Source: Oscillospiraceae bacterium
GTDB lineage: Bacteria; Bacillota; Clostridia; Oscillospirales; Oscillospiraceae
Assembly (NCBI GenBank): GCA_017440925.1
Contig: JAFSAP010000020.1
Location: 1 to 34,399, forward strand
DNA: 34,399 bases
Direction: 5' to 3'
The notes under the pieces are model-generated. The model had not been told where the DNA came from. It did not search any database and worked only from the letters and a program-made list of their open reading frames with translations. The translations under genes were made by a program, and so were the position numbers. Positions 14,061 to 21,396 of this stretch are shown here, piece after piece. Each line of letters begins with the position of its first letter. The first letter of the stretch is position 1.

Positions 14061-14143
14061 GCGAGAGTGTTGGAATGGTAGACAAGCACGTTTGAGGTGC
14101 GTGTGGTTATGCCGTGTGGGTTCGAGTCCCATCTCTCGCACCA
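14061..14143 (+). tRNA. tRNA-Leu, anticodon GAG
   Basis: The acceptor strands GCGAGAG (14061-14067) and CTCTCGC (14133-14139) pair perfectly, with discriminator A and encoded CCA at 14141-14143. The D arm contains TGGTAGAC. The anticodon stem CACGT/GCGTG encloses the loop TTGAGGT, giving anticodon GAG (codons CUC/CUU). A long variable arm marks it as a class II tRNA. The T arm has GGTTCGAGTCCC. The 3' part of this gene (14123-14140) is repeated exactly at 14269 and 17886, marking it as an integration target. Confidence 0.95.
14123..14140 (+). repeat. 18-bp core in the tRNA-Leu 3' end (copy 1 of 3)
   Basis: CGAGTCCCATCTCTCGCA inside the tRNA gene is identical to 14269-14286 and 17886-17903. 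A tRNA 3' end duplicated downstream is the classic footprint of site-specific integration. I infer that this is the native attB-like copy. Confidence 0.8.
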
Positions 14144-14178
14144 AAAAAGAGGTCGTCCTGATGGACGGCCTCTTTTTT
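14144..14178 (+). terminator. Intrinsic terminator of tRNA-Leu
   Basis: It starts at the base after CCA: GAGGTCGTCC pairs with GGACGGCCTC (one G-T), flanked by A and T runs. The same arrangement, CTCGCACCA then terminator, recurs at 15860-15905 and 17729-17775. Confidence 0.9.
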
Positions 14179-14188
14179 GGTATGTGGG

Positions 14189-14286
14189 TGGGACTCGAAT
14201 AACTAAATGCAAGTGTCCGGTGGACACTTGCTCGATTCCGGCTCGACGGAATCGACACCATAGTGTAACGAGTCCCATCTCTCGCA
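14189..14286 (+). other. Cloverleaf-like structured element I ending in a tRNA 3' copy
   Basis: Outer stem TGGGACTCG (14189-14197) pairs with CGAGTCCCA (14269-14277). Inside are three hairpins: GCAAGTGTCC/GGACACTTGC with loop GGT (14209-14231), TCGATTCCG/CGGAATCGA (14232-14255), and a short ACAC/GTGT (14255-14266). It ends with the 18-bp tRNA copy 14269-14286. The same architecture occurs at 17785-17903 with different but still complementary stems, so the fold is conserved rather than the sequence. It may act as RNA or as folded single-stranded DNA (an attachment site). It matches no family I can name. Confidence 0.75.
14269..14286 (+). repeat. 18-bp tRNA-Leu 3' core (copy 2 of 3)
   Basis: Identical to 14123-14140, 146 bases downstream. 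It forms the 3' strand of the outer stem of structured element I. Confidence 0.8.
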
Positions 14287-14320
14287 TTCCGACATGTGAA
14301 TTAATTGTGAATTGTTGATA

Positions 14321-14346
14321 ATTGTTGCACGTTTATGTGCAACAAT
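14321..14346 (+). repeat. Perfect 10-bp inverted repeat upstream of the first DUF4417 gene
   Basis: ATTGTTGCAC, a 6-base loop, and GTGCAACAAT. It lies 42 bases before the annotated start of the first DUF4417 gene. An identical copy is 42 bases before the second (15920-15945). No T run follows, so it is more likely an operator, leader hairpin or recombination feature than a terminator. Confidence 0.75.
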
Positions 14347-14362
14347 ACCCTGATTTGAAGGT

Positions 14363-15757
14363 ATGGGTAGAAGGACGAAGTCCTTACTTCATCTCAGGAG
14401 GTTCAAAATAACCGAAGAAAACTACAATTATCGTACGAGTCAGACGTTGCTCAGAAACCAGTTCCCGGGTAAAGGAAAGCTGCAAATTCCTATTATCCCA
14501 AGATTCAAAGCAAAAGAAGATGACTTCAACGATTTGCTGTTGATCGGCTTCGACAAGACACATCTGGAAGATCAAAATCATCTTGATCGAATGGTACATT
14601 TCTTCCTCTACGATTACAGGTTCGAAAGGGTATGGAAGAATCCAGATAATGACATCGAAAAACTATCCAGATATCGGGCTGTGCTGTCACCAGATTTCAG
14701 TATGTATTTGGAAATGGCTCCTGTGATGCAATTGTACAATTTGTTCCGTAACCGTTGGTGTGGTGCCTATTGGGCGTCCAAAGGTATTAGGGTAGTTCCA
14801 AGTGTCAACTGGGGAGATGAATCTACCTTTGATTTCTGTTTTGATGGCATTGAAAAGGGGAGTGTAGTCGCGGTTTCAACCTATATGGCATCTGAACATG
14901 ATCACCGTAAAGATCAAAAGGAATGGTTTTTGGCAGGATACAATGAAATGCTGCGGCGTATCGAACCAGAGAAAATCATTTGCTACAATACACCTTTTCC
15001 TGAAATGCAGGGAGATATTGTATATGTAGACTATGAACGCAGTTCCTGGCGGTACATGGATTACGAGCGAAAGGCTGTTCCTAACAATGATTTGGATTGC
15101 TATAAAATCGGTGGTGCAAAACAGGATATCTGTGATACAATAGATGTGTACATGATTGGCAAGGGCGGCGGAAGCGCTTTTGGTGGTAAGTGGAGGCCAA
15201 GTCCTAAAAAACCAGAAGATCAAAGATTTTTAGGTAAACCGGGTGAAATCAAAACGACATACAAAAATGAGTATCGTGTTGAAACAAAGATCGGTGAAGA
15301 TGGACGTGCTACGGTAGAACGACATCATACAGACCACAAACAACCGTGGGCGCATAGTGATCCGCACGATCACCCTATACATTGGAATAATCCAGCAGGA
15401 TTTCCTGATCCTCAGCCTGCAATCAATTATCCTGATGGTGCACCGGAGTTTAAGCAATTCAGAGGTTACTATATGAAGAATACGATTGTACCTGCAAATA
15501 CTTATGAACAGAATCAATTTGTTACCATAAGTGATTTTAAGACTTGTATGAGATGGCACGGTGAGGTCGAATTTACATGGAATGGCATAACATATAATAT
15601 TACACACCGTAAAGATAAAATCTCAATTTCTGTGAGTTATCGGCAGGAAACAGAAAAACTGTGTGATACAGCTGATGAAGTCCTGGATTACATGGTTGGG
15701 GAAGATCGCTTGCGAGATATTATCACTAAAGTTACAGTTTTGGACAGAACAATATAA
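14363..15757 (+). CDS. DUF4417 protein A with His-rich middle and shared C-terminal domain
   Basis: The 464-residue protein of unknown function has three parts. The DUF4417 core is at about 30-245 (IPIIPRF, HFFLYDYRFERVWKNP, SPDFSMYLEMAPVMQLYN, NWGDESTFDFCFDG, VAVSTYM). A Gly-rich and His/Asp-rich middle runs about 260-370 (GKPGEIKTTY, IGEDGRA, ERHHTDH, PHDHPIHW). The C-terminal domain covers about 387-464. A close paralogue lies at 15962 and a free-standing copy of the C-terminal domain at 17381. DUF4417 occurs on phages and mobile elements; its activity is unknown. Start uncertain: the ATG at 14363 has no proper ribosome binding site, while AGGAGG at 14396-14401 lies inside the ORF without a standard start after it. 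The region is AT-richer than its flanks, suggesting acquisition. Confidence 0.8.
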   Translation: MGRRTKSLLHLRRFKITEENYNYRTSQTLLRNQFPGKGKLQIPIIPRFKAKEDDFNDLLLIGFDKTHLEDQNHLDRMVHFFLYDYRFERVWKNPDNDIEKLSRYRAVLSPDFSMYLEMAPVMQLYNLFRNRWCGAYWASKGIRVVPSVNWGDESTFDFCFDGIEKGSVVAVSTYMASEHDHRKDQKEWFLAGYNEMLRRIEPEKIICYNTPFPEMQGDIVYVDYERSSWRYMDYERKAVPNNDLDCYKIGGAKQDICDTIDVYMIGKGGGSAFGGKWRPSPKKPEDQRFLGKPGEIKTTYKNEYRVETKIGEDGRATVERHHTDHKQPWAHSDPHDHPIHWNNPAGFPDPQPAINYPDGAPEFKQFRGYYMKNTIVPANTYEQNQFVTISDFKTCMRWHGEVEFTWNGITYNITHRKDKISISVSYRQETEKLCDTADEVLDYMVGEDRLRDIITKVTVLDRTI

Positions 15758-15770
15758 ACGAAAGAGATGC

Positions 15771-15868
15771 AATGTGAGGTAAAAATAAGGAAATTTGATA
15801 CTCTGAAATCCTAAAAACCGTTGGTATCTCTTACTTTTTTAAAAAGTCCTATAAGAACACTCGCACCA
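15771..15868 (+). repeat. Dispersed ~95-bp repeat, copy a, ending in CTCGCACCA
   Basis: Shared blocks with the other copies: GTAAAAATAAGGAAATTTGA, CTGAAATCCTAAAAACCG, TTGGTAT, the palindrome ACTTTTTTAAAAAGT, and AGTCCTATAAGAACAC. It ends CTCGCACCA, matching the tRNA 3' end, and a terminator starts at the next base. It lies 13 bases after the DUF4417 A stop. Confidence 0.85.
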
Positions 15869-15905
15869 CGGGAAAGTCCTTATAGGACTTTCCCGTTAAT
15901 TTTTT
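15869..15905 (+). terminator. Terminator directly after repeat copy a
   Basis: CGGGAAAGTCCT and AGGACTTTCCCG form a perfect 12-bp stem with a TAT loop, followed by TTAATTTTTT. It ends transcription of DUF4417 gene A. Confidence 0.85.
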
Positions 15906-15919
15906 CTAAACTTTCTCTA

Positions 15920-15945
15920 ATTGTTGCACGTTTATGTGCAACAAT
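15920..15945 (+). repeat. Perfect 10-bp inverted repeat upstream of the second DUF4417 gene
   Basis: Identical to 14321-14346 in stem, loop and distance to the following ORF. Confidence 0.75.
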
Positions 15946-15961
15946 TCCCTGATTTGAAGAT

Positions 15962-17374
15962 ATGGGTAGAAGGACGAAGTCCTTACTTCATCTCAGGAGG
16001 TTCAAAATAACCGAAGAAAACTACAATTATCGTACGAGTCAGACGTTGCTCAGAAACCAGTTCCCGGGTAAGGGAAAGCTGCAAATTCCTATTATTCCAA
16101 GATTCCAGGTAAAAGAGGATGACTTCAACGATTTGCTGCTGATTGGTTTTGATAAGACACATCTGGAAGACCAAAATCACCTTGATCGAATGGTACATTT
16201 CTTTCTCTACGATTACAGATTTGAAAGAGTGTGGAAGAATCCGGATAATGACATTGAAAAACTGTCACGTTATCGGGCAGTACTGTCACCGGATTTCAGT
16301 ATGTATTTGGAAATGGCACCTGTGATGCAGCTGTACAATGTGTTCCGTAACCGATGGTGCGGTGCTTACTGGGCATCCAAAGGTATTCGGGTGATTCCTA
16401 CTGTCAACTGGGGAGATGAATCTACCTTTGATTTCTGTTTTGATGGCATTGAAAAGGGGAGCGTAGTTGCAGTTTCAACCTATATGGCATCAGAGCATGA
16501 CCACCGTAAAGACCAAAAGAAATGGTTTTTATCAGGTTACAACGAAATGTTGCGGCGTATCGAACCGGAGAAAATCATTTGTTACAATACACCTTTTCCT
16601 GAAATGAGTGGAGATATTGTGTATGTAGACTATGAACGCAGCTCCTGGCGGTACATGGATTACGAACGAAAGGCAGCTCCGAACAATGATTTGGACTGTT
16701 ATAAAATCGGTGGTGCAAAACAGGAAGTTTGTGATACAATAGATATGTACATGATCGGTAAGGGTGGTGGAAGTGCTTATGGAGGAGAATGGAAACCATC
16801 CAAACCAGAAGATGAACGCCTTATTGGTAAACCGGGAGAGATTAAGGTTACATATATGAAAGATGGATCAAAGTTTGTAACTAAGATTGGCGAGGATGGT
16901 CGTGCAGTTATGGAACGCCATTATACAGACCATTACAAGCCCCATGCCCATAGTTCACCACATGATCATCAAATCCGATGGGATGCTCCTCGATATGGAA
17001 TTCCCGATTTTGTTAAGCCACATATCAATTATTGGCCGAGTGATTATCCAGATGGTGCCCCTGAGTTTAAAGCATTGAGGAGGGATACGATGTATACAAA
17101 CTGCAATTTCGGCAGAATGGAAGATGAAGATCGGTTTAAAACCATTTCTGAGTTTAAGGAATGTATGGTTCGAGGCGGAGAAGTGGAGTTCTTATGGAAA
17201 GGGATTCATTATAGTGTAACACACTACAATGACAATATATCGATCTCCCACAGCTGCCGTCAGGACACAGAAATGCTGAGAAAAACTGCTGATGAGATTA
17301 TGGAATACATGGTTGGAGAGGACAGACTTCGTGATGTAATTACACAGGTTACAATTCTGCTACGGACTATTTGA
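15962..17374 (+). CDS. DUF4417 protein B, paralogue of the gene at 14363
   Basis: The 470-residue protein has the same three-part layout as its neighbour: DUF4417 core (about 30-245), His/Asp-rich middle (ERHYTDH, PHAHSSPHDHQIRW), and C-terminal domain (about 393-470, from FKTISEFKECMVRGGEVEF to VITQVTILLRTI). The first 112 bases of both ORFs are identical including silent positions; differences then appear steadily and the middle diverges most. This is a tandem duplication, with the flanking inverted repeat, dispersed repeat and terminator duplicated too. The start is uncertain for the same reason as in protein A. It is followed 6 bases later by a small ORF encoding only the C-terminal domain. 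Confidence 0.8.
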   Translation: MGRRTKSLLHLRRFKITEENYNYRTSQTLLRNQFPGKGKLQIPIIPRFQVKEDDFNDLLLIGFDKTHLEDQNHLDRMVHFFLYDYRFERVWKNPDNDIEKLSRYRAVLSPDFSMYLEMAPVMQLYNVFRNRWCGAYWASKGIRVIPTVNWGDESTFDFCFDGIEKGSVVAVSTYMASEHDHRKDQKKWFLSGYNEMLRRIEPEKIICYNTPFPEMSGDIVYVDYERSSWRYMDYERKAAPNNDLDCYKIGGAKQEVCDTIDMYMIGKGGGSAYGGEWKPSKPEDERLIGKPGEIKVTYMKDGSKFVTKIGEDGRAVMERHYTDHYKPHAHSSPHDHQIRWDAPRYGIPDFVKPHINYWPSDYPDGAPEFKALRRDTMYTNCNFGRMEDEDRFKTISEFKECMVRGGEVEFLWKGIHYSVTHYNDNISISHSCRQDTEMLRKTADEIMEYMVGEDRLRDVITQVTILLRTI

Positions 17375-17380
17375 TGTTAT

Positions 17381-17626
17381 ATGAACAATTTTGAATCATT
17401 TTGGGAATTTAAAGAGTGTATTATCCGTGGCGGTGAACCTGTGTTTGAGTGGAATAGTGTCAGATACGGAGTATGCTTTGCAGAGAAAGGCTATTGTATC
17501 GCACGCACGGATGGTTCCTGTGAGCGGATTTATAATACTCCGGATGAACTCTTGGCGTATATGGTTGATGGCGCAAGACTGAGAGATATTATTACCAAAG
17601 TCTACGTTGTATCGCGTTCAATCTAA
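17381..17626 (+). CDS. Free-standing copy of the DUF4417-protein C-terminal domain
   Basis: The 81 residues begin MNNFESFWEFKECIIRGGEP and end LRDIITKVYVVSRSI. They align along their whole length with the last 80 residues of the two DUF4417 proteins (FxxCxxxGGExxFxWxxxxY..., then YMVxxxRLRDIITKV). The ATG is 6 bases after the DUF4417 B stop without a clear ribosome binding site, so translation is probably coupled. Function unknown; as a duplicated domain it may bind the same partner as the larger proteins. Confidence 0.7.
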   Translation: MNNFESFWEFKECIIRGGEPVFEWNSVRYGVCFAEKGYCIARTDGSCERIYNTPDELLAYMVDGARLRDIITKVYVVSRSI

Positions 17627-17638
17627 GATTCAATCTAC

Positions 17639-17736
17639 AATGTGAAGTAAAAATAAGGAAATTTGATGCTCTGAAATCCTAAAAACCGTTGGTATAACTC
17701 ACTTTTTCAAAAAGTCCTATAAGAACACTCGCACCA
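17639..17736 (+). repeat. Dispersed ~95-bp repeat, copy b, ending in CTCGCACCA
   Basis: Nearly identical to copy a (15771-15868) and including the perfect palindrome ACTTTTTCAAAAAGT and AGTCCTATAAGAACAC. It ends in CTCGCACCA and is followed at once by a terminator. Confidence 0.85.
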
Positions 17737-17775
17737 AAATTCCGGTTACCCCTTACGGGGTGACCGGAATTTTTT
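17737..17775 (+). terminator. Terminator directly after repeat copy b
   Basis: AAATTCCGGTTACCCC and GGGGTGACCGGAATTT form a 16-bp stem (one G-T) with a TTAC loop, followed by T residues. The stem sequence is unrelated to the terminator behind copy a. Confidence 0.88.
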
Positions 17776-17784
17776 GTGTGTAGA

Positions 17785-17903
17785 TGGGACTCGAAGACCT
17801 AAATCGAAACAGTCCGGTGGACTGTTTCTGCCACCAGTTCAAAAACTGGTGGCTACCATACGATGTACCTTTGGCACATCGGCAACGAGTCCCATCTCTC
17901 GCA
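17785..17903 (+). other. Cloverleaf-like structured element II ending in a tRNA 3' copy
   Basis: Outer stem TGGGACTCG (17785-17793) with CGAGTCCCA (17886-17894). Inner hairpins: GAAACAGTCC/GGACTGTTTC with loop GGT (17806-17828), GCCACCAGTT/AACTGGTGGC with loop CAAA (17830-17853), and CGATGT/ACATCG (17861-17881). Compared with element I, three pairs of the first hairpin are changed and all three are compensated, while the loop and adjacent TCC/GGA are identical. The second hairpin is wholly different in sequence but still perfectly paired. The 3' end is the third exact copy of the 18-bp tRNA core. No ORF of note crosses it credibly. Confidence 0.75.
17886..17903 (+). repeat. 18-bp tRNA-Leu 3' core (copy 3 of 3)
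   Basis: Identical to 14123-14140 and 14269-14286. Together with copy 2 it bounds 3.6 kb that contains the three DUF4417-related genes. Confidence 0.8.
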
Positions 17904-17990
17904 TATTTTATCTACAAGCCGTGGGAGAGCCCCTCGGATTTCAGACGCATCCGATATGGATGTGGATCAAATTCAAATATGTCCGATTCC

Positions 17991-18044
17991 GAAAAAGCGT
18001 TGGTACAAGCGCACTTTTCTAATGGTCCTATAAGAACAATCGCA
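17991..18044 (+). repeat. Dispersed repeat, copy c, 3' half only
   Basis: Matches the 3' half of copies a and b: GCGTTGGTAC, GCACTTTTCTAA, GGTCCTATAAGAACAATCGCA. It follows structured element II. Between them (17904-17990) is a small CATCC/GGATG hairpin at 17948-17962 and nothing else I recognise. The following 18045-18140 shows no gene. Confidence 0.7.
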
Positions 18045-18188: not shown

Positions 18189-19367
18189 TTATTGGATTTG
18201 GGTGATTACCAAGTGTGCGGAAACAGGCCGTGTGCCACCAGCCAGCGGCGTGATGGTCAGTGCGGCGGCGGTTCCTTCAGGATTTCGAACTGTTAAAACA
18301 GAATTGATAACCGTTGTTTCAACGATCGCCATACCAACGATTTGGGATACTCCGGTTGCACGGCCTGCTACTGTATATGCCAAGTCTTCACCATTTAAGG
18401 TCAGAATCAGCTGTCCGGCTTCGGTCACACTTACCTGGAACAGTACCTGATAGGTGCCAATCTCAGCCAAAGTGAATGCGTCTGGACCGGAGCGGACAAT
18501 GCCGGACCCACTGTTGGGGCCGTCCTGCGGGAAGCTGACATCTGTTCCGGGTGCAACGGTTGCTGAGTTATCAGGAGGCATTAGCGCATAGAAATCTGCA
18601 TAGTTCAGAACACCACCGGCTGGGCCCTGTGGGCCGACTGGACCAGTCTCACCGGCAGGCCCCTGAGGGCCAATAGGTCCGATTTCACCAGCAGGTCCCT
18701 GAGGACCGATAGGCCCGGTTTCACCAGCAGGTCCCTGAGGACCGATAGGTCCGGTTTCGCCAGCAGGCCCTTGAGGGCCAGCGGGTCCAGTCTCACCAAC
18801 AGGACCTTGAGGACCAATGGGACCGGCTTCCCCGGCAGGCCCCTGAGGACCAGCGGGTCCAGTCTCACCAACAGGACCTTGAGGACCAATGGGACCGGCT
18901 TCCCCGGCAGGCCCCTGAGGACCAACAGGACCAGTTTCACCAATAGGACCCTGAGGGCCAACAGGTCCAGCTTCACCAGCAGGCCCTTGAGGGCCGATAG
19001 GCCCGGTTTCACCGACAGGCCCCTGAGGACCAGCGGGTCCAGTTTCACCGGCTGGACCTTGAGGACCAACGGGACCTGCCTCCCCGACAGGCCCTTGGGG
19101 GCCAATGGGTCCGGCGGCACCTGTGGGGCCCTGCGGACCAACTGGACCCCTGGCGCCCGGAATGCCTTGCGGTCCTTCCGGTCCCCGCGGACCGACTGGA
19201 CCCTGTGGGCCAGCAGGACCCTGAGGGCCTGGAGGACAGTTTATACAGCAGTTACAATGCTCTTTTTCTTTGCAGCTATTATCTCTCGGCGGATATCGTT
19301 TGCATGAATTATCATCAAATTGTGCACCGCAATTTCTGTCTTCAAAACAATGATAGTTGTTCATCAC
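18189..19367 (-). CDS. Collagen-like protein with BclA-type C-terminal domain, probable spore surface filament
   Basis: It has 392 residues. The N-terminal 46 residues are Cys rich (eight Cys, ending NCPPG) with no signal peptide. Residues 47-250 are about 68 Gly-X-Y triplets with Pro at X, mostly a 12-residue unit of the [12 protein letters not shown] type. The C-terminal 142 residues (from [15 protein letters not shown] to HLVITQIQ) look like the trimerising C1q/TNF-like domain of BclA exosporium proteins. Family knowledge suggests a trimeric filament on the spore coat or exosporium; spoIIID at 28099 shows that the organism has the sporulation programme. GGGAGGGA precedes the ATG. It could alternatively be a phage tail-type collagen protein, but the Cys-rich start argues against this. 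Confidence 0.88.
18618..19229 (-). repeat. 36-bp tandem repeats encoding the Gly-X-Y tract
   Basis: The collagen-like stretch is built largely of a 36-bp unit (12 residues) with silent and single-residue variation. Such tracts change length by recombination and are prone to assembly error. Confidence 0.85.
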
Positions 19368-20256: not shown

Positions 20257-20351
20257 AATTGTGAAGTAAAAAAAGGAAATCCGTTGCTCTGAAATTTGAA
20301 AAACCGTTGGTACGAGATCATTTTCCGAAAAGTCCTATGAAAACGCTCGCC
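20257..20351 (+). repeat. Dispersed ~95-bp repeat, copy d
   Basis: Shares GTGAAGTAAAAA, GCTCTGAAAT, AAAAACCGTTGGTA, TTTTCCGAAAAGTCCTAT and a GCTCGC end with copies a and b. It lies between the divergent M15 peptidase and SDR genes. The antisense open frame across it is not credible as protein. Confidence 0.8.
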
Positions 20352-20402
20352 TCCATACCCATGGAAAAATGTGATTTTATCACAGAAAACCAAGAACTTT
20401 CC

Positions 20403-20411
20403 TGTTATACT
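20403..20411 (+). promoter_or_regulatory. Extended -10 promoter of the SDR gene
   Basis: TGTTATACT contains a TG extension and TATACT (20406-20411), 34 bases before the SDR ATG. No good -35 is present at the right distance. Confidence 0.45.
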
Positions 20412-20444
20412 ACAGCCATAAATCAAAGGAAAGGTGGAACCAAT

Positions 20445-21203
20445 ATGAAACTTTATCATAAATCTATCGTTGTTACCGGAGCTTCTTCCGGTATGGGTAA
20501 GGCAATCGTAGAACTGTTTGCCCGGGAGGGTGCCAATATTATTGCTGTGGCGCGGCGAAAAGACAGACTGGATGCATTGGTGGAGTCCTTGCAGAATGCT
20601 CCTGGAAAGGTTGTGCCTTTTGCCGGCGATATCTCTGTGCAGGAAACTATGGAAGCTGCCATTGATCTGGCGGTGAAGGAATTTGGCCGGCTGGATATTC
20701 TTGTGAACAATGCAGGTGTTATGGACGACATGAGCCCCATCGGTGATGTGGTAAATGAAAAAATCGACCAGGTTTTCCGTGTCAACGTTTATGGCCCCAT
20801 GTATTCCATGCGTAAGGCCGTTCAGGTATTTCTGAAGCAGGGTGAGGGTGGCAACATCATCAATGTGGCATCGCTGGGCGCTATGAGAACTGTCGCGGGT
20901 GCAGTGTATAATGCATCCAAAGCAGCGTTGGTATCTTTAAGCAAAAATACCGCGTTTATGTATCTGCCCAATGGCATTCGCTGCAATGTGATCGCACCCG
21001 GCGGAATTCAGACCGAGATCAGCAATTCTATGGGTATGCCCAATATGGCAGGCTATGGCCGTGTGAAAAATGTGTTGGCGGCAGCGCCTGCACCTGGAAC
21101 TGCTGAGCAGATTGCATCCGCAGCACTGTTTTTGGCCAGTGATGACTCCAGCTATGTCAATGGTGATGTTCTGGTAGTTGACGGCGGCTGGAATGCCGGT
21201 TAA
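20445..21203 (+). CDS. Short-chain dehydrogenase/reductase (SDR)
   Basis: The 252-residue classical SDR is an NAD(P)-dependent oxidoreductase. The cofactor motif is TGASSGMG, followed by ARRKDRL (an Arg-rich end of strand two, favouring NADP), and NNAGV. The active site is Ser143 in NVASLGA and Tyr155/Lys159 in YNASK. The C-terminus SSYVNGDVLVVDGGW is typical of FabG-like or sugar/hydroxysteroid-type enzymes; the substrate is not readable. The start at 20445 follows AAGGTGG; an upstream in-frame ATG at 20307 lies in the dispersed repeat. It is flanked by repeat copies d and e, as a single-gene cassette would be. Confidence 0.94.
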   Translation: MKLYHKSIVVTGASSGMGKAIVELFAREGANIIAVARRKDRLDALVESLQNAPGKVVPFAGDISVQETMEAAIDLAVKEFGRLDILVNNAGVMDDMSPIGDVVNEKIDQVFRVNVYGPMYSMRKAVQVFLKQGEGGNIINVASLGAMRTVAGAVYNASKAALVSLSKNTAFMYLPNGIRCNVIAPGGIQTEISNSMGMPNMAGYGRVKNVLAAAPAPGTAEQIASAALFLASDDSSYVNGDVLVVDGGWNAG

Positions 21204-21212
21204 AAAATGATG

Positions 21213-21249
21213 AAAGGGCGGCAGTATCATCAGCCGCCCTTTACTTTAT
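21213..21249 (+). terminator. Terminator after the SDR gene
   Basis: AAAGGGCGGC and GCCGCCCTTT form a 10-bp stem with a 10-base loop, followed by the weak tract ACTTTAT. Confidence 0.7.
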
Positions 21250-21304
21250 GCCGGTTGTATTGTCGAAGTCTTCTTGTATCTTGTCCTATCTAAGAGTTAA
21301 TTTA

Positions 21305-21396
21305 CAATGAGAACCGAAAATCAGGACATTTTCTGCTTTGAAATTTAAAAAAACCTTGATATGACCCACTTTTTTCAAAAGTCCTATAAGAATATT
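21305..21396 (+). repeat. Dispersed ~95-bp repeat, copy e (most diverged)
   Basis: Shares CTTTGAAATTTAAAAAAACC, GATATGACCCACTTTTTTCA and AAAAGTCCTATAAGAATA with the other copies but lacks the TCGCACCA end. It is the last copy in the array. The rest of the 379-base gene-free stretch 21204-21582 holds only the SDR terminator and an AT-rich leader of the next gene, with TAAAAT at 21547 as a possible -10 box. Confidence 0.7.

Follow-up and report, generated by a model that had tools for sequence, protein, structure and literature searches.

How does the 3′ end of a tRNA gene come to be repeated twice downstream of the intact gene, each time at the close of a sequence that can fold into a branched structure? 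This question is raised by a contig of an Oscillospiraceae bacterium (JAFSAP010000020.1, assembly GCA_017440925.1; 34,399 nt, referred to below as the window), in which a tRNA-Leu(gag) gene is followed by two such elements, E1 and E2, with protein-coding genes between them (Table 1). The 5′ arm of each element is the T-arm of the tRNA in reverse complement, and both elements close with CGAGTCCCATCTCTCGCA, 18 nt that are identical to the end of the tRNA from base C56 (T-loop) onward. An earlier sequence-only reading of the window noticed the pair and offered three explanations: a small RNA, a tRNA mimic, or a folded single-strand attachment site. The data presented here support the assignment of E1 and E2 to a large family of DNA elements that dock at tRNA genes, conserve their structure and behave in a cassette-like manner, and the last of the three explanations fits best. 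On balance, and with some reserve, we favour the view that the elements are docking and boundary sites of small integron-like cassettes, which enter the 3′ half of tRNA and transfer-messenger RNA (tmRNA) genes and are worked as folded single-stranded DNA (ssDNA) by a recombinase. Loci and genomes are designated below by L and G numbers; R1 is the covariance model of the family.

Structure of E1 and E2

An outer stem made from the tRNA T-arm and its complement, as proposed from the sequence alone, was seen in both elements (Table 1). Hairpin 1 differs between E1 and E2 at three pairs, all of them compensated, and hairpin 2 differs in sequence with its pairing kept; both claims of the sequence-only reading hold. 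Three inner hairpins had been described in each copy. This is true of E2; in E1 the third hairpin is weak (ACAC/GTGT) and is absent from the minimum-energy fold. The TCC-GGT-GGA tip of hairpin 1, which had been called invariant, is the same in E1 and E2; in the family, TCC[AG]GTGGA was found in 40 of 67 rows of a larger alignment (A4, described below). Folding of the elements as ssDNA gave z scores of −9.2 (E1) and −8.0 (E2) for the + strand and −8.1 (E1) and −9.7 (E2) for the − strand, with 0 of 200 shuffles as good in each case. R1 scored E1 at 97.6 bits and E2 at 63.7 bits, both elements being among the 23 rows from which the model was built.

A family of structured elements

A DNA search of the window's own genome gave 8 matches, with copies behind other tRNAs and an outer stem resembling the T-arm of the respective tRNA. 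An alignment of 23 copies (A1) contains 24 predicted pairs, 20 of them with two-sided changes; since hairpin 1 and the outer stem had been selected for pairing, only hairpin 2 is an independent test in this alignment. R1 was built from these 23 copies with 26 pairs set by hand. R1 matched 88 of the 101 genomes sampled from the genus (the window's own included), at up to 25 sites per genome, and these counts are lower bounds because 39 candidates were scored per genome. Most of the further copies stand at tRNA genes and a few at cassette junctions, with compensated changes in their stems, which is the outcome that the sequence-only reading had named as support when it put forward a covariance search. 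At the level of the order, two of 197 genomes matched R1 at 1e-4, namely the window's own genome and one weak match.

A 23-nt hairpin-1 pattern was found in at least 120 stretches of named genomes; 55 of the 80 listed titles name Oscillospiraceae, and many are ruminant-gut samples. Other subfamilies, which have hairpin 1 and the T-arm arms in common and are different in the rest, occur in further records. A broad pattern search detected other subfamilies in one of 391 genomes of the class and gave no match in the window's own genome; as its minimum gap left out the main subfamily, this frequency speaks for the other subfamilies only. Pattern loci in Actinomycetes and Salipiger were not matched by R1, and their resemblance to hairpin 1 was put down to chance.

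Among phage and plasmid records, none matched E1. The sequence-only reading could match the elements to no known RNA, and no Rfam 15 family exceeded its gathering score at E1 or E2; sub-threshold overlaps were seen with mir-154 (14136-14185) and Acido-Lenti-1 (17831-17878). The gathering-threshold scan alone is a weak negative because it also missed the window tRNA, which reached 48 bits in an Rfam E-value scan (gathering score, 29). No description of such elements was found in a literature search, which did not reach bioRxiv or most subscription papers.

Conservation of the fold

Two larger sets of R1 matches were aligned to the model and hence lean to its structure. A4 holds 67 matches (66 distinct) in regions of five genomes picked largely for model matches, some rows being also in A1. 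A2 holds 72 matches (71 distinct) from loci mostly fetched via the hairpin-1 pattern, so that helix 2 is to be discounted there. In A4, 95.1% of cells were paired, compared with 28-43% when slid; two-sided compensated changes were present in 25 of the 26 pairs, and the covariation score was 0.638, compared with 0.187 when shuffled and at most 0.095 when slid. The corresponding values for A2 were 94.9% of cells paired (24-44% when slid), two-sided changes in 22 of 26 pairs, and a covariation score of 0.381 (0.107 shuffled, at most 0.065 slid). Two-sided variation was seen at all seven outer-stem pairs and all nine hairpin-2 pairs in A4 and A2 alike. Only two apical C-G pairs of hairpin 1 are near-constant in A4 (61/62 and 60/62), and the choice of rows for the model favours them. 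The sequence-only reading had concluded that selection acts on the fold. From two copies this was too strong; some constraint is clear in the larger set, while intrastrand (quasi-palindrome) correction could supply much of the perfect pairing and the tip, whose invariance would argue for selection, is less invariant than it had seemed. Conservation of the site as a single-strand fold, which is a mark of integrons, was found here both in the pairing of A4 and in the DNA-fold z scores of E1 and E2 (−8.0 to −9.7).

Position behind tRNA genes

Three pooled sets of R1 matches, after removal of duplicates by sequence, gave 184 distinct elements, including a few weak matches (such as L202 and L120) and two reverse-strand shadows (L011, L212). 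Setting aside 24 elements left 160 with at least 250 nt upstream. Among these, 108 begin no more than 70 nt past the end of a same-strand tRNA or tmRNA, 24 at 71-400 nt and 10 at 400-4000 nt, and 18 have no tRNA or tmRNA in the locus. The median distance between tRNA and element is 49 nt (111 elements within 70 nt), and 33 kinds of tRNA or tmRNA serve as dock. Orientation was counted for 151 elements with 300 nt on both sides: a same-strand tRNA ends within 300 nt upstream of 123, one has only an opposite-strand tRNA nearby, and 27 have none. A hairpin and a T run were found in 94 of 108 distinct spacers between tRNA and element.

The arms match the tRNA behind which an element stands. The longest run in common between the 3′ arm and its own tRNA was 16.4 nt (mean for other kinds, 5.5 nt), and in 118 of 133 cases no other kind gave a longer run than the own tRNA; for the 5′ arm the values were 11.3 versus 6.3 nt and 102 of 133. 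The base preceding C56 in the 3′ copy is mixed (n = 145: A 61, T 55, G 16, C 13), which indicates that homology to the tRNA generally begins at C56. Downstream copies of the tRNA end were present for 96 of 185 tRNAs in 165 loci, many of which had been fetched because they bear elements. As with tRNA-integrated elements, a direct repeat of the tRNA 3′ end lies at the far side of the insert; in the window there are two such repeats (14269-14286 and 17886-17903).

The arms also follow the site when the core is the same. An identical 51-nt core was found at tRNA-Cys (L134), with arms CAGATTTG/CAAATCTG, and at tRNA-Arg (L026), with arms GGGACTCG/CGAGTCCC; four of the eight stem pairs are changed and all four are compensated. 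In 6433 comparisons between elements at different tRNAs (116 elements, 8 arm positions), the number of differing positions was 2.1-2.4 for the 5′ arm and 2.3-2.9 for the 3′ arm, and it scarcely rose between 4% and 35% core difference. The arms thus depend more on where an element stands than on the ancestry of its core. The nearest core neighbour shares neither genome nor tRNA in 68 of 95 cases, and it comes from the same genome in 9 of 95 (4.0 were expected, and the largest shuffle gave 12). The assignment to genomes is imperfect, as some named records duplicate a genome with a G number (L152 and L218 are identical over 3.6 kb). The 5′ arm matched the tRNA better than the element's own 3′ copy did in 16 of 109 elements, about six of which look like misplaced 3′ ends; the reverse was seen in 2 and neither clearly in 91.

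Cassettes, cargo and an element-free site

Many consecutive elements start 113-175 nt apart, and the cores are less than 80% identical in 26 of 41 consecutive pairs (a few pairs span two tRNA genes). Seven segments of cargo lie between two elements: in the window, L087, L097 (twice), L086, L231 and L213. The second element of L086 is a weak R1 match (33 bits), and a second copy of tRNA-Pro(ggg) lies between the two elements of L213. Cargo between elements that could be named with Pfam comprises DUF4417 (window), a ribonuclease-family protein (barnase) with barstar (L086) and HTH_3 (L213); the L231 cargo was named by eye as a short-chain dehydrogenase/reductase (SDR). Cargo was also found between the tRNA and the first detected element, with HTH_3 in L106, 23S_rRNA_IVP in L091 and LCM in L242. 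Six of 15 cargo proteins match a family at E ≤ 0.01 and nine do not, in a count that leaves out an integrase fragment in L160 and two Xer-like proteins. The main cargo open reading frames (ORFs) run in the direction of the tRNA, short opposite-strand ORFs being disregarded. DUF4417 was considered as the mover and rejected, as the genome has only two DUF4417 genes, both in the window, versus 25 R1 matches. No close relatives were found in the viral contigs scanned.

An element-free site was detected in G074. Here tRNA-Pro(ggg) and its terminator are followed by the flank upstream of one conserved gene, and R1 gave no match. With the same downstream gene, tRNA-Pro(ggg) is followed in G109 by an element plus degenerate copies of the tRNA end, and in G018 by an element plus about 3.5 kb more. 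The search for such sites covered 18 genomes; the flank was matched in 17, and tRNA-Pro(ggg) was present in two of the 17 loci read (G074 and G011). In G011 (L298) the insert behind tRNA-Pro is of another kind: its arms extend into the 5′ T-stem strand, and R1 did not match it. Two records from other Clostridia can be compared at tRNA-Lys. In L137 a single element stands between duplicate copies of the segment that runs from C56 through the terminator, and L123 holds one unit more than L137 (weak R1 scores of 28 and 24 bits). Behind the elements of L203 and L225, copies of the tRNA end recur in tandem as short repeats of about 30 and 28 bp, which resemble the scars that lost units would leave.

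Proposed mechanism and its difficulties

An integron-cassette-like working is the best reading of these data; by the tests made, the elements are not members of the integron family. A cassette would begin with a copy of the tRNA 3′ end, from C56 to CCA, and a terminator; cargo may follow, and an inverted T-arm with two or three hairpins would complete the unit. In ssDNA the inverted arm would pair with the direct arm and so close the branched fold. A recombinase would then swap one strand between the folded site and the tRNA T-loop, at or just 3′ of the T55/C56 bond, in an exchange that may be likened to that of integron integrase acting on folded attC and attI. The incoming copy would rebuild the tRNA, and the old 3′ end would stay behind the element. 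We infer movement by site-specific recombination, ssDNA as its substrate and the kind of enzyme.

Several observations weigh against this mechanism. Insertion explains the 3′ arm. Simple recombination leaves unexplained why the inverted 5′ arm matches each new tRNA, for which either correction from a template or strong selection is needed. In 18 of 95 cases an element and its nearest core neighbour stand at the same tRNA (expected 5.0, largest of 1000 shuffles 16), so that cores are not freely mixed. Core identity reaches 95% or more in 8 of 41 consecutive pairs, as could result from plain tandem duplication. A single downstream copy was found at 78 of the 96 tRNAs with copies, and long arrays are therefore rare. 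Where no tRNA lies within 400 nt (39 elements), the motif used for copies of the tRNA end was absent just upstream in 28 cases. The T-arm of the element-free tRNA-Pro in G074 differs from that in G109. Neither an excised circle nor strain-level gain or loss was seen in the assembled sequences.

The enzyme adds to these difficulties. No genome of 16 from the genus exceeded the 265-bit cut-off for the integron integrase TIGR02249; sub-threshold matches were found in 16/16 genomes and 14/14 controls, as expected of general tyrosine recombinases. A hidden Markov model (HMM) was built from 25 integrases taken from element-rich genomes, match-free genomes and one viral record, and over the loci it found no integrase consistently adjacent to elements: leaving integrase-fetched loci aside, it detected 12 ORFs in 10 loci, six of which hold a tabulated element. 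In this the elements differ from tRNA-integrated elements, which have their own integrase beside the site. When 81 integrase-like ORFs were clustered at 40% identity (a few of the listed matches being left unfetched), six element-rich genomes shared only two recombinase groups, both Xer-like by eye and both also present in three genomes without R1 matches. One integrase group (408-434 aa) was found beside tRNA-Gln (L210, L324), Ser (L110), Leu (L270) and Trp (L343), with an element between integrase and tRNA-Gln in L210; this group is a candidate helper. Three loci (L274, L275, L277) hold, by eye, filamentous-phage-like prophages with a Zot-like ATPase and a replication protein between the two Xer-like genes.

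A bolder form of the mechanism addresses the 5′ arm. The element could be a self-rewriting attachment site, which on landing rewrites both arms of its outer stem, the inverted one too, from the tRNA that it meets. This remains a tentative proposal. If it is true, one core could dock at nearly any tRNA gene and carry cassettes while leaving the tRNA unbroken, and Clostridia would have an integron-like system with the set of tRNA genes as attI.

Alternative explanations

The integrase group found close to Gln, Ser, Leu and Trp tRNAs would also suit another reading. The elements may be non-autonomous hitchhikers, similar to miniature inverted-repeat transposable elements (MITEs), moved in trans by integrases of tRNA-targeting prophages or integrative elements, with the T-arm as an ordinary double-stranded core site and the fold as secondary. 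The prevalence of single downstream copies is in line with this, as are two viral contigs (L201/L253 and L203) that have a partial tRNA 3′ end just upstream of the element, an arrangement that looks like the integration of a prophage into the tRNA in front of a resident element. We consider hitchhiking unlikely, as it leaves the covarying inner hairpins and the inverted arm unexplained and as some element-rich genomes gave no member of the integrase group. No dedicated recombinase is needed if the elements are a replication artefact that multiplies by tandem duplication, with intrastrand template switching, the process known as quasi-palindrome correction, maintaining the palindromes. Stems that are perfect yet variable in sequence would be expected from it, and near-identical tandem units such as those of L241, L147 and L130, the excess of elements in which the 5′ arm is the better tRNA match (doubtful cases included) and a hairpin-1 tip more variable than first thought all point the same way. 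Such a process cannot alone account for similar cores at 33 kinds of tRNA across many genomes, and the two apical C-G pairs of hairpin 1 are near-constant, if partly through row choice; as a full account it seems quite improbable to us.

An RNA function would require that the element is transcribed and that the antisense T-arm of its 5′ arm, or the cloverleaf, acts on the neighbouring tRNA. The strong covariation, the mostly same-strand position behind tRNAs and arms complementary to the tRNA 3′ half would suit such a role. We regard it as very unlikely, and the tRNA mimic and the small RNA of the sequence-only reading as less likely than the folded attachment site, because a hairpin and T run stand ahead of the element in most spacers and because precise tRNA 3′ copies and cargo between elements are left unexplained; Rfam matches at the elements are sub-threshold only.

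Comparison with known systems

The integron-like cassettes proposed here resemble integron cassettes with attC sites, and clusters of attC sites lacking an integrase (CALIN), in that the fold is kept more than the sequence. Short co-oriented cargo units with a structured site at the 3′ end, in arrays beside one docking site, would be a further likeness; the seven cargo segments with main ORFs in the tRNA direction point to it, and the prevalence of single downstream copies points away from it. The proposed cassettes differ in the dock, which is attI in integrons and a tRNA or tmRNA gene here, and most units here are gene-less. The core boxes of attC are RYYYAAC and GTTRRRY, and attC is one long imperfect stem. 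The boxes were not found here, where the common arms are GGANTCGAA ... CGANTCC, that is, the tRNA T-arm, and several hairpins are arranged around a junction. Prophages and integrative elements that target tRNAs with a tyrosine recombinase (attL/attR) likewise have the direct tRNA 3′ repeat and an insert that rebuilds the tRNA; the usual unit here is about 150 bp without an integrase, has an inverted T-arm and hairpins, and belongs to one family behind 33 tRNA/tmRNA kinds. In integrative mobile elements exploiting Xer (IMEX) of the CTX-phage type, two inverted half sites fold ssDNA into a recombination site, a folded attP used by XerCD. The folding of inverted half sites in ssDNA is alike; the target is dif and the size that of a phage there, whereas the target is a tRNA and the units are far smaller here, and a role of Xer is only a candidate. 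Repetitive extragenic palindromic (REP) sequences and REPINs, with their RAYT transposases, are abundant intergenic hairpin repeats as well; the present elements differ from them by the position behind tRNAs, the tRNA-matched arms and the cargo.

If the proposed working is true, a cassette site that adopts the sequence of any tRNA met would be a second solution to gene capture, in a genus represented in samples from the ruminant gut, and the exchange of accessory genes would have hubs at tRNA 3′ ends. These elements also make it testable how a palindromic site keeps its two arms matched after a change of target. Integrons are described as rare in Firmicutes (PMC9024848).

Layout of the window

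The features of the window are listed in Table 1.

Table 1. Features of the window around the tRNA gene that serves as dock (positions in the 34,399-nt stretch)
Feature	Position	Strand	Remarks
tRNA-Leu(gag), dock	14061..14143	+	ARAGORN; T-loop C56 at 14123, CCA at 14141-14143
Inverted repeat / terminator-like hairpin, tRNA-E1 spacer	14140..14181	+	19-nt arms, 95% complementary; stem extends into CCA
E1	14189..14286	+	5′ arm 14189-14197, hairpins 1 and 2, 3′ direct tRNA-end copy 14269-14286
E1 outer stem	14189-14197/14269-14277	+	9 bp
E1 hairpin 1	14209-14218/14222-14231	+	10 bp, loop GGT
E1 hairpin 2	14232-14240/14247-14255	+	9 bp
Cargo from E1 up to E2's terminator	14287..17735	+	Bounded by E1 and E2, both closing with 18-nt tRNA copy
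Cargo gene A, DUF4417 protein, 464 aa	14363..15757	+	Pfam PF14386, E 1.2e-54
Cargo gene B, DUF4417 paralogue, 470 aa	15962..17374	+	Pfam PF14386, E 5.8e-56
81-aa ORF	17381..17626	+	DNA in part a third copy (70%, 67 nt) of A/B C-terminal stretch
Terminator-like hairpin ahead of E2	17736..17773	+	17 pairs
E2	17782..17903	+	5′ arm 17782-17793, three hairpins, 3′ direct tRNA-end copy 17886-17903
E2 outer stem	17782-17793/17886-17897	+	12 bp (direct reading)
E2 hairpin 1	17806-17815/17819-17828	+	
E2 hairpin 2	17830-17839/17844-17853	+	10 bp
E2 hairpin 3	17861-17866/17876-17881	+	
Collagen-repeat protein	18189-19367		BclA_C-like C-terminus below Pfam cut-off
SDR gene	20300-21392		Downstream of E2
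~100-bp repeat, five copies	15770-15868; 17638-17736; 17988-18044; 20260-20350; 21292-21392		Poorly folding

Besides E1 and E2, the window contains a second repeat of about 100 bp, which folds poorly and punctuates the DUF4417, E2 and SDR segments. Its first two copies end in CTCGCACCA, which is like the acceptor end of tRNA-Leu, and a terminator then follows. This repeat was present in 16 of 61 genomes of the genus, the window's own included, and tRNA-Leu(gag) was found in four of 11 loci read. In L231 the SDR gene (89% identity over 1096 bp) is flanked by two elements, but in the window it is found downstream of E2.

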